Assembly (NCBI GenBank): GCA_958296025.1
Contig: OY282430.1
Location: forward strand, 3,586,477 to 3,650,476
Source: an uncultured Pseudomonadales bacterium
Lineage (GTDB): Bacteria > Pseudomonadota > Gammaproteobacteria > Pseudomonadales > Azotimanducaceae
DNA length: 64,000 nucleotides
Reading direction: 5' to 3'
Positions 31,388-34,268 of the stretch are shown here, piece after piece; the first letter of the stretch is position 1, and the number at the start of each line of letters is the position of its first letter. The notes below the pieces were generated by a model, which was not told the DNA's origin, searched no databases, and saw nothing but the letters and a program-made list of their open reading frames with translations. The position numbers were made by a program, and so were the translations under genes.

Positions 31388-31739
31388 TGGTGGGCCCACC
31401 AGGACTCGAACCTGGGACCAATGGATTCACGAACCCCCGGCGTTTCCGCCGGGCGCGGACTATCTCACCGCCCTCGGCTTGACGTTAGGGCGCGGGACGC
31501 TCCAGCCTGTCATTAAGGGCGCTTTGACCGACACCCCGCTCAACGACCAGCAAGCGGAGGCCCGATCAGCCCTCAGGTAGTCTCTGCACCTTCCGGCGGT
31601 GTACCGCCGGCTTGGCTCAGGGTTGCCGCCGGCCTGCCCCGCTGCGGGTTCCCTGAATTCATCCCGTTCCACCCGGCCCTTTCGGAGCGGGGGCACCTAT
31701 TGATGAGTCCACTGCTCTAACCAACTGAGCTATAGGCCC
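31388..31739 (-). tRNA. tRNA-Ile(CAU), interrupted by a group I intron
   Basis: The minus strand encodes a full tRNA in two exons: 31739-31703 and 31427-31388. Acceptor GGGCCTA pairs with TGGGCCC (including one G-U), the D arm is 'GCTCAGTTGGTTAGAGC', the T arm is 'CCAGGTTCGAGTCCTGG', and CCA is encoded. Joining the exons gives anticodon loop CTCATAA, anticodon CAU. The variable region and overall sequence resemble the lysidine-modified tRNA-Ile2 rather than initiator or elongator Met. The 275-nt insertion lies between T36 and A37. The same tRNA is the host of the known Azoarcus group I intron. Confidence 0.9.
31428..31702 (-). ncRNA. Group I self-splicing intron in the tRNA-Ile anticodon loop
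   Basis: All four conserved group I elements occur in order on the minus strand: P (AATTCAGGGAACCC, 31659-31646), Q (CAACCCTGAGCCAAGCC, 31625-31609), R (GGTGCAGAGACTA, 31590-31578) and S (GATAGTCC, 31464-31457). P1 can form between exon CAU and intron GUG (31696-31694), giving the required U-G pair at the 5' splice site. The last intron base (31428) is G. No protein is encoded, so it relies on RNA catalysis. The size (275 nt) and site resemble the small IC3-type bacterial tRNA introns, such as that in Azoarcus tRNA-Ile. Confidence 0.9.
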
Positions 31740-31832: not shown

Positions 31833-34268
31833 CTAACGCTTGCCGGCGGAGGCCGCCTCTTCCAAGAAGCTGCGCAAATGCTCAGAGCGGCTGGGATGGC
31901 GCAGCTTGCGCAGCGCCTTGGCCTCGATTTGGCGAATGCGCTCCCGGGTGACGTCGAACTGCTTGCCGACCTCCTCCAAGGTGTGGTCGGTGTTCATGCC
32001 AATGCCGAAGCGCATGCGCAGCACCTTGGCCTCACGCGCCGTCAGGCCGCCGAGAGCGTTGCCGATCAGCTGCTTCAGGCCGTCCTCGGTGGCGATATCC
32101 ACCGGCAGGCCGCCATTCGGGTCCTCCACGAAGTCGCCGATGTGGGAGTCGTCATCGTCGCCGATGGGAGTTTCCATGGAGATCGGCTCCTTGGCGATCT
32201 TCAGCACCCGACGCACCTTGTCCTCGGTCATCTCCATGCGCTGACCGAGTTCCTCCGGCTTCGGCTCCCGCCCCATTTCCTGCACCATCTGCCGGGACAC
32301 CCGGTTCAGCTTGTTGATGGTCTCGATCATATGCACCGGAATGCGGATGGTGCGCGCCTGGTCGGCGATGGAGCGGGTGACCGCCTGACGTATCCACCAA
32401 GTGGCGTAGGTGGAAAACTTGTAGCCGCGCCGGTACTCGAACTTGTCCACCGCCTTCATCAAGCCGATGTTGCCCTCCTGGATGAGATCCAGAAACTGCA
32501 AGCCGCGGTTGGTGTATTTTTTGGCAATGGAGATCACTAGGCGCAAGTTGGCTTCCACCATGTCCTTTTTGGCCCGCCGCGCCTTGGCCTCGCCCAAGGA
32601 CATGGCGCGGTTGACTTCCTTGATCTCCGTCACCGACAGACCGGTTTCGGCGCACAGGGCGCGCAGCTTCCTAAGGATGCGGGCGATCTCCTCCTTGTGC
32701 GCCGCGACGGCCGGCGAATAGGGTTGGTTAGCCCGAATCAGCCGATTGGCCCAGTTGATGGTGGTCTCCTTGCCGACGTACTCCTTGCGGAAGACTTCCC
32801 GCGGCACCCGTGCCTGCTGCAAGCAGATGGTGGTGAGGGCGCGCTCCAAGCGGCGCACTTCAATGAACGCCTGCCGCCCCCAGCTGACGATCTCGTCGTA
32901 ATACCTAGGCGTCAGCTTGAAATACTGGAATTTGCGTCCGAGGGCGGCGACCTGCGCCTTGGACTCGCGGCTGGCGCGGCCTCGTTCGCCGATTATCTTC
33001 TGCGTCTTGTTGAATTGGCGCCGCAAGGCCGTGAAGCGCTTTTTCGCCTTCACCGGATCCGGCCCCTTGGGAGCGTTTGCGGGCGCGACGCTCTTTTTCA
33101 CCGCCGCCGCCTTGTCCTGCCCCTTGTCCCCGCCCGCTTCCAAGCCGCCGGCCGCAACGGCTTCGTTGGCGGCGCCTTGACCCTCGTTGAGTTCCAGGCT
33201 GCCAGCGCTCTTTGGGCCGGCAGCGGCCTCGGCACCGTCGGCGACAGCCTCCTCGGCTTGGCCGGCAGACTCGGCTGGCGCTTCAGCGCCGGCCAAGCCT
33301 TCCGCCGTTGCGCCGGCCTCGGCACGGTCGATGGCGACCGCGGCCGCGGCCTGATGCTCAGCCCCATGCTGGGCTGCGGGAGGCTGCTCGACGCTTTCTT
33401 GGCCTTGGTTGGCGGTGCCGCCGTCCGCATCGGCGCTGGCATTGACGCCTTCTGCGGCCGGAGTTGGCGCAGCCGCCACGGTTGGCGCCGCCGCAGTTGG
33501 CACCGCCTTCACCATTGGGACTGCCATTGTGGTCGGCACCGCCGCTGGGGCTGGCACGGCTGCCAGCGTTGGCACGGCTGCCAGCGTTGGCGCGGCTGCG
33601 GCGGTCGGCATGGCCGCAGCAACTGGCATGGCCGAGGCGCTTGGGGGTGGCGCCGCCTCTACGGCCTTGGCCTCCCCTACCGCGCCCATCGCCGCCGGGG
33701 CTTCTTTTTTGGCCGCCGGCCCCGTTTGCGGAGCGCGGGGCACATGATCCGTGGGATCCAAATAGCCGACCAACAGGTTGGAGAGCTGCCCTTCCTTGCT
33801 GAGTTCGCTGTAGGCGTCCAGGATGTACTCCACGACTTCCGGAAACTTGGCCAAGGCCGAAAGCACATCCCGAATGCCCTCCTCGATACGCTTGGCGATG
33901 GCGATCTCGCCCTCGCGGGTCAGCAGATCCACGGAACCCATCTCCCGCATGTACATGCGCACTGGATCCGTGGTGCGGCCGGCCTCGGTCTCCACTGCGG
34001 CTAGAGCGGCGGCAGCCTCCTCGGCGGCCAGTTCATCGACGGTGTTCTCTTCGGCGCTCAGCAGGTCATCGGCATCCGGCGCATGTTCATGCACCTCAAT
34101 GCCCATGTCGTTGATCTTGGAGATGACTTCCTCGATTTGGTCGGAATCCGACAGGTCTTCGGGCAGATGGTCGTTGACCTCAGAAAAGGTCAGGTAGCCC
34201 TGCTCCTTGCCCTTGGCGATCAGTTCCTTCAAACGGGAGGGTTGCTGCTGCTGAGCTTGGTTTTTCAT
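31833..34268 (-). CDS. rpoD: RNA polymerase primary sigma factor, with long Ala/Pro-rich insertion
   Basis: An 811-residue sigma-70. Region 1.1 is at residues 1-80; '[22 protein letters not shown]' is region 1.2. The core has '[69 protein letters not shown]' scattered over regions 2.1-2.4, then 3 and region 4 ('[29 protein letters not shown]'). Typical RpoD has about 610 residues. The extra length, residues roughly 180-400, is low-complexity Ala/Pro/Glu sequence with short repeats, in the normally variable non-conserved region. It is downstream of dnaG with a 293-bp gap holding a probable own promoter. Confidence 0.95.

Follow-up and report, generated by a model that had tools for sequence, protein, structure and literature searches.

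The tRNA-Ile(CAU) gene that lies beside rpoD in the window (by which we mean the whole 64-kb stretch of DNA analysed here) raises the question of what kind of intron interrupts it, how this element came to be there, and whether the cell depends on its removal.

The split gene and the fold of its intron

Positions 31388-31739 of the minus strand hold a tRNA-Ile(CAU) gene into which a group I intron of 275 nt is inserted, directly behind U36. The locus comprises:

31703-31739, minus strand: 5' exon of tRNA-Ile(CAU), G1 to U36, 37 nt
31428-31702, minus strand: group I intron, 275 nt, with its terminal G at 31428
31388-31427, minus strand: 3' exon of tRNA-Ile(CAU), A37 to the encoded CCA, 40 nt
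31833-34268, minus strand: rpoD, upstream neighbour of the tRNA gene on the same strand (from the ORF list; it also adjoins the intact gene in relatives)

The joined exons give a 77-nt cloverleaf with the anticodon CAU, which ARAGORN detects in the spliced form; the cloverleaf that the preliminary description had obtained by removing 275 nt (31428-31702) is thus reproduced with its exact coordinates. ARAGORN labels the spliced tRNA Met(cat), and the program does not separate Ile2 from Met. In the unspliced window it detected no tRNA, and when introns were allowed its splice was off by two bases, so that the window gene and 14 counterparts from the same family were read as Gln(ctg). The ORF list contains a 78-aa frame inside the intron (31460-31696) that overlaps the core, and no endonuclease gene, the mark of a mobile (homing) intron, was recognised in the ORF list of the window copy. 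A promoter belonging to the tRNA gene itself was dropped as a candidate after a scan upstream gave 0 consensus matches, although such scans carry little information. Relatives of the neighbouring RpoD include that of the isolate SAT2963, with 81.6% in the conserved end (299 aa), and those of two bins, one an uncultured gammaproteobacterium (72.4%) and the other labelled HTCC2089 (72.1%), each over 409 aa. The host itself has the look of a gammaproteobacterium.

The covariance-model search that had been proposed as a check identified RF00028 at 31436-31714 on the minus strand (E 8.8e-10, model positions 1-253), the sole Rfam match of the 64-kb window at gathering thresholds, with 50.2 bits, which exceeds the gathering score of 50 by 0.2 bits only. 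The fold was therefore tested on relatives. We named the structure P1-P9 from the window sequence and then counted its pairs in an alignment of 102 of 113 tRNA-Ile introns, leaving out introns longer than 340 nt, one with an N, and 8 that are IC3-like. The elements of the intron are the following, with pairing as found in the 102 aligned introns:

31694-31705, minus strand: P1, exon CAU (31705-31703) paired with guide GUG (31696-31694), U.G at the splice site, extended by C31702-G31697; 4/4 pairs invariant
31672-31691, minus strand: P2, with a GAAA loop; 7/7 pairs change on both sides
31493-31666, minus strand: P3 (31666-31660 / 31499-31493); 98.6% of cells paired, 4/7 pairs change on both sides
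31617-31656, minus strand: P4 (31656-31651 / 31622-31617), enclosing P5; 99.7% of P4 cells and 82.7% of P5 cells paired
31588-31616, minus strand: P6 and P6a
31458-31582, minus strand: P7, the guanosine-binding helix, GACUA (31582-31578) / UAGUC (31462-31458); invariant in 102/102
31500-31577, minus strand: insert of 78 nt between P7 and P3', a covarying hairpin described below
31469-31492, minus strand: P8; 90.0% of cells paired
31436-31453, minus strand: P9, with a GAAA loop; 7/7 pairs change on both sides

Over the 6512 cells of P1-P9, 94.3% are paired, compared with 36-47% when the partners are slid by 1-3 columns and 80.4% in shuffles; deriving the structure from one aligned sequence would by itself raise the paired fraction over that of the slid versions. 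Changes on both sides of a pair depend less on the source of the structure than the paired fraction does. Such changes occur somewhere in 44 of the 64 pairs (32.3 in shuffles, 19-29 when slid) and in 918 cells (257 shuffled, 132-231 slid). P1 and P7 do not vary, which fits their roles in guiding and in guanosine binding, and so they contribute no covariation information; P2 of the window intron contains one unpaired C-C position. The P3-P7-P8 core, whose absence had been named as grounds for rejecting the intron, is present, with P7 paired in 100% of cells and P3 and P8 as listed. With a match above gathering and a covarying fold in 102 introns, the group I intron reported at U36/A37 is confirmed, together with its CAU/GUG P1, and we consider it very probable indeed that the element is a group I intron that splices.

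The 78-nt insert between P7 and P3' folds into a hairpin made of an outer helix of 4 pairs (CCUG 31577-31574 / CAGG 31509-31506) and an inner helix of 5 pairs (AGGGC 31573-31569 / GCCCU 31520-31516), with a 3' bulge between them (UAAUGA 31515-31510; mostly UAAURA among the relatives). All 9/9 pairs of these helices change on both sides across the 102 introns. A chance insert or a mobile element within P7 was dropped as an explanation in view of this conservation and covariation. Among the 113 tRNA-Ile introns, 101 have a P7-to-P3' gap of 30 nt or longer and 8 one of 2 nt; in the remaining 4 (L069, L090, L091 and L171, all from Bacteroidota) it is 12-23 nt, where the automatic reading ends inside the hairpin. 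Accordingly, 8 introns have P7 and P3' adjacent, as in IC3, and 105, the window's included, carry the hairpin.

Distribution of the intron in bacteria and in viral contigs

The preliminary description regarded group I introns in bacterial tRNA genes as rare, an assessment that the distribution of this intron does not support. RF00028 was found in 18 of the 58 genomes searched (the host's own included), 17 of them among the 37 genomes of the window's family, and 15 of the 23 places, including that in the window, are the same tRNA-Ile(CAU) intron of 236-360 nt, identified by a pattern that demanded a terminal G. Three of the genomes (G015, G020, G029) contain more than one RF00028 place each. 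A scan of GTDB species genomes for 5' exons whose next base, position 37, is anything other than A returned at least 118 stretches: 98 have the full 3' exon, 12 end before it is complete, 7 are other or intact tRNAs, and one (L125) was left unread. There are hence at least 98 complete split genes, and all 98/98 of their inserts end in G, which this script did not demand, in agreement with the terminal G noted earlier at 31428. By their names, many of the records belong to Gammaproteobacteria, broadly understood (Woeseiaceae, Steroidobacteraceae, Granulosicoccaceae, Comamonadaceae and others), and some to Bacteroidota (Runella, Saprospiraceae, Splendidivirga). In a class-wide sample 24 of 369 genomes, the host's own included, carry the split gene. 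Among 206 genomes of the window's family, equally strict patterns identified 72 split and 59 intact alleles, 0 genomes with both (compared by genome identifier) and 75 with neither, the last being perhaps incomplete genomes or genes with other exon letters.

Several of these introns show peculiarities of their own. A same-genus intron (L051, from G007) is 360 nt long, with about 85 extra nt in the loop of P1. A MAG from Saprospiraceae (L104:5622 onward) has a 685-nt intron at the same tRNA-Ile site, with an open frame of 142 residues in which an HNH-like cysteine/histidine pattern was recognised by eye, without a Pfam match at 0.001. Introns from contigs labelled Akkermansia, Actinomycetes and Halobacteria (L066, L097 and L170, respectively) group with those of Limnohabitans or of gammaproteobacteria, and L170 also holds an rpoD stretch 67.8% like that of the window; these contigs are probably mis-binned.

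Of the 9 genomes of the window's genus, 4 have the split and 5 the intact gene. The tRNA adjoins rpoD in the split genomes of the genus and in all five intact alleles, which suggests that the gene stayed in place and the intron came or went; transfer of the whole tRNA gene was dropped as an explanation in view of the intact alleles at the same rpoD locus. The earlier suggestion of "either transfer or wider spread" is thus upheld as to wider spread, while the position beside rpoD loses its value as a sign of gene transfer, since intact alleles are found there too. We suggest that the tRNA gene remained beside rpoD while the intron spread independently of it, homing being the most likely route. 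The same pattern of presence and absence is also predicted by vertical descent from an ancient gammaproteobacterial ancestor with many losses, without recent homing or phages. Such descent would agree with the finding that the nearest introns to that of the window are from its own genus (L052 and L040, in trees without L051), and with the locus beside rpoD that split and intact genomes have in common. The mixture of split and intact alleles within a single genus speaks against it, as does the occurrence of the window's build in Bacteroidota and in viral contigs, and we regard it as unlikely, if far from absurd.

Viral contigs (so called by their source collection) contain the hairpin motif in at least 120 stretches, and a group I intron from Rfam covers the motif in 16 of the 18 viral loci tested. 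That the P7-P3 hairpin is real and shared with phage introns appears to us highly probable. When the window intron was searched against 50,697 phage records, the best named match was Vibrio phage 11895-B1 (78.5% over 93 nt of the core, E 1e-12), where the matching segment lies under an annotated terminase large subunit and would represent an intron there. Second comes a match in psbA of a Synechococcus phage, inside a segment annotated as a group I intron (50 nt at 80%, E 6e-3). Among the matches listed, no phage record covers more than 34% of the window intron. In addition, 66 mycobacterial phage records matched; those among them that are listed align over 36 nt within endolysin genes (E 2e-3), and we take these matches as chance.

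Viruses also possess split versions of the tRNA gene itself. Its 5'-exon pattern occurs in 34 viral stretches, 17 of which have the 3' exon and an insert ending in G, 2 have a 100-nt insert ending in A, and 15 are without the 3' exon. Of 16 loci scanned with RF00028, 5 (L373, L375, L380, L389, L400) have a match at gathering on the split tRNA, and 11 have no group I match there at this threshold. On two large contigs the intron encodes an HNH_3 domain and has the same kind of hairpin as the window's; it measures 763 nt in L387 (177,611 b), where it scores below RF00028 gathering, and 759 nt in L389 (158,120 b). Next to its split tRNA-Ile(CAU) gene, L387 also has a TilS-like frame, 200 aa long, which at 71.1 bits falls short of the cut-off of 93.6; it looks as though the phage carried its own equipment for decoding AUA. 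Among the other contigs, L371 encodes a terminase-like protein and L373 a member of a phage RNA ligase family. Phages with their own split tRNA-Ile(CAU) would be plausible carriers of the intron. We lean towards an origin of this intron type in a phage lineage; that phage tRNA genes were the carriers is a possibility we rate at slightly short of even, and the direction of transfer is one that we infer.

Other inserts in viral tRNA(CAU) genes look different. L384 and L394, which resemble each other, have the gene split by 451 nt, and the insert of L384 consists mostly of a PDDEXK_5 endonuclease-like frame (70.8 bits), with no group I match at gathering. In L372, L378, L388, L399 and L402 the inserts are 440-663 nt long, have blocks of letters in common and end in GTGGTACG or GTGGTAAG, again with no group I match at gathering; they may represent yet another, third type of intron architecture at this position. 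The 100-nt inserts ending in A (L374 and L390) interrupt the same tRNA and are too short for a group I intron.

Class of the intron and lineages at U36/A37

Members of IC3 lack an extension between P7 and P3, the place where the window intron has its 78-nt covarying insert, and a hairpin extension at this place is found in phage-type IA introns. The td intron of T4 (class IA2) resembles the IC3 ribozymes of Azoarcus and Synechococcus save for its P7.1/7.2 extension (PMC4498298), and because td differs from IC3 by such an extension we read the insert as an extension of IA type. The IA2 extension between P7 and P3 associates with P7-P3-P8 (PMC4498298), and the hairpin described here may likewise pack on P3-P8. 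Introns of subgroup IA2 have two hairpins in domain 7 and an extended P9 with P9.1 and P9.2 (PMC4227781). In the window intron there is one composite hairpin, P9 is separated from the 3' splice site by 8 nt, and a second P7 hairpin, P9.1 and P9.2 are absent, so that no subgroup of IA can be named. Judged from its sequence, the ribozyme appears to be built more like phage introns than like the IC3 intron of Azoarcus. Kinship with the Azoarcus intron, which the preliminary description named as the best-known one in this tRNA, is not supported: the site is the same, but the hairpin is absent from IC3 and the best named phage match lies in the terminase gene of a Vibrio phage.

Phylogenetic trees were calculated from core columns with random subsets of tRNA-Ile and phage rows, without L069, L090, L091, L171 and rows of odd length; the 103-, 104- and 102-row versions have 134-138 columns for about 100 rows. 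The 93-row tree is the 103-row set minus 10 long or odd rows, and in both of these P7 was wrongly anchored in about a dozen rows and one class was forced to a gap of at least 18 nt; the 102-row tree, with repaired anchors, omits two misread phage rows and three long or odd rows. In all three, a branch supported by 99/92 (103 rows), 100/98 (93 rows) and 100/99 (102 rows) separates 13 hairpin-less introns, found in tRNA-Ile, tRNA-Leu, tRNA-Arg and two phage tRNAs, from the window's type. In the 104-row tree, which also has repaired anchors and in which two phage rows were misread as hairpin-less, the IC3-like group is not one clade (p 0.052). The 8 tRNA-Ile introns of IC3 build group with those of tRNA-Leu and tRNA-Arg, apart from the window's type, whose core thus falls outside the IC3 grouping. 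A single clade of all tRNA-Ile introns, including those from phage tRNAs, has p-AU values of 0.289 (93 rows), 0.052 (104 rows) and 0.049 (102 rows) and is therefore at most weakly rejected. The window's type as one clade is not rejected either (p 0.323, 0.339 and 0.101), and the best trees show 4 changes instead. An AU test of tRNA-Ile introns without the phage ones (p 0.0003, 93 rows) counts as no evidence, because the phage tRNA introns nest inside the IC3-like group.

Since the hairpin marks phage-type IA introns and the IC3 build differs, U36/A37 has probably been entered by at least two group I lineages, and two independent entries are likely to be the better reading of these sequences. 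An intron of Azoarcus type, inherited from or transferred out of betaproteobacteria, that had merely gained a hairpin would account for the same tRNA, site and P1 pairing and for the GNRA-type loops in P2 and P9, and a single tRNA-Ile clade is not clearly rejected by the values above. We consider such an origin improbable in view of the well-supported separation of the 8 IC3-build introns from the window's type, the letters of the hairpin common to introns of viral contigs, and the position of the best named phage match within a phage gene.

Introns in other tRNAs bear on the range of both builds. The window's bacterial family also has tRNA introns of IC3 build, two in tRNA-Leu(UAA) (L055 and L057) and one in tRNA-Arg(CCU) (L056). 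In another family of the order a tRNA-Leu gene (L047:1468-1821) contains an intron with the same phage-like build as the window's, and this type is therefore not bound to tRNA-Ile.

Beyond the two entries, we tentatively propose that U36/A37 of tRNA-Ile2 may be a standing target, colonised separately by at least two subgroups (IC3 and phage IA-like), with phages bearing a split tRNA-Ile2 (one of them beside a TilS-like gene) and HNH endonucleases as vehicles. If this is true, phage tRNA genes seed introns into essential tRNA genes of bacteria across Pseudomonadota and Bacteroidota.

Likely dependence on splicing and comparison with known systems

The genome is a single contig of 3,915,453 b, in which the tRNA model finds 46 places, 43 of them above the cut-off. 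On the stretches holding those places ARAGORN read 43 distinct tRNAs, two of which have a CAU anticodon; from their features we take both to be tRNA-Met genes, one elongator-like and the other initiator-like. The 43 tRNAs read across the genome include no Ile(UAU) and no other Ile(CAU), and inspection by eye of two places left unread by ARAGORN (L186 and L188) revealed no Ile(CAU) gene. The first of these (L186, G000:C1:3480435-3480542) is 108 nt long, scores 43.6 bits as a tRNA and has an anticodon arm that looks enlarged. In the whole genome the split tRNA-Ile(CAU) pattern occurs once and the intact pattern has 0 matches. The genome also encodes tilS (123.6 bits, cut-off 93.6), so the search that had been called for to find another tRNA-Ile(CAU) and tilS yielded only the latter. 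The CAU anticodon, the presence of TilS and the lack of any other Ile(CAU) or Ile(UAU) among the tRNAs found identify the gene as tRNA-Ile2, with lysidine predicted at C34. AUA codons are present in 6/6 window genes counted (2 in rpoD, 1 in dnaG and 1 in each of four others). Because this is the only Ile(CAU) gene found and the window genes contain AUA codons, decoding of AUA likely depends on splicing, as had been supposed for the case that no second AUA-decoding tRNA exists.

The anatomy of the gene is observed, and we infer the steps that follow from established group I and TilS chemistry. The precursor would be transcribed, and pairing of the guide GUG with the anticodon CAU would place a U.G pair at the splice site. 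A guanosine in the P7 pocket would cut after U36, and the freed U36 would attack after the terminal G and join the exons into a normal tRNA-Ile2, which TilS would modify for the reading of AUA. A dying or dead copy, in which the intron no longer splices and AUA is decoded in another way, would fit the score barely above gathering and the unpaired C-C position in P2, but is very improbable given the AUA codons in rpoD and every other window gene counted, the retention of tilS, the intact P1, P7 and exons, the 102 aligned introns of the same anatomy, and the lack of another Ile(CAU) or an Ile(UAU) among the 43 tRNAs read.

Overall, we consider it probable that the locus represents a phage-type group I intron in an essential tRNA-Ile2, spread by movement of the element while the gene remained fixed beside rpoD. 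The presence of group I introns in tRNA-Ile2 is already known from Azoarcus and from Acidovorax and Burkholderia (PMC8450103); among open-licence papers we did not find the phage-type form, its spread or the split phage tRNA in print. With a widespread split essential tRNA on one side and viral split tRNA(CAU) genes on the other, the question of how introns enter essential RNA genes becomes testable.

One close system is the Azoarcus intron, which is 205 nt long, interrupts its tRNA at U36/A37 and pairs CAU with GUG in P1. Like it, the window intron has tRNA-Ile as host and a group I core, the intron of Azoarcus sp. BH72 having been compared by description; in contrast to that IC3 intron, it is 275 nt long and has the 78-nt extension between P7 and P3. 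For the pre-tRNA-Ile group IC3 intron of Azoarcus sp. BH72, crystal structures exist (PMC3984707). Group I introns of tRNA-Ile2 in Acidovorax and Burkholderia are mentioned in the description of tRNAscan-SE 2.0 (PMC8450103), and the same tRNA is involved; in its passage on these introns that source gives neither a structure class nor a link to phages. It attributes a missing fMet or Ile2 gene in 36 genomes to group I introns (PMC8450103). For annotation this means that genomes may only seemingly lack Ile2 or fMet, and ARAGORN missed or misread the split gene here.

The host genome has a second group I intron, in 23S rRNA after AACGGTCCTAAGGT (G000:C1:146083-146742; L002:1501-2160). It scores 46.9 bits with RF00028, below gathering, and its 138-aa ORF matches LAGLIDADG_1 (91.4 bits); a group I intron at the same rRNA sequence was found in L054. 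Like the window intron, it is a group I intron in an RNA gene of the same genome, but it differs in its site and host gene, in falling below gathering and in having an endonuclease-type gene (LAGLIDADG_1). From the phage IA2 introns, such as td of T4, and from IStron introns, the window intron differs in having a tRNA as host gene and a single composite hairpin without P9.1/P9.2, but it shares with them an extension between P7 and P3, and the motif of this extension occurs in viral contigs.
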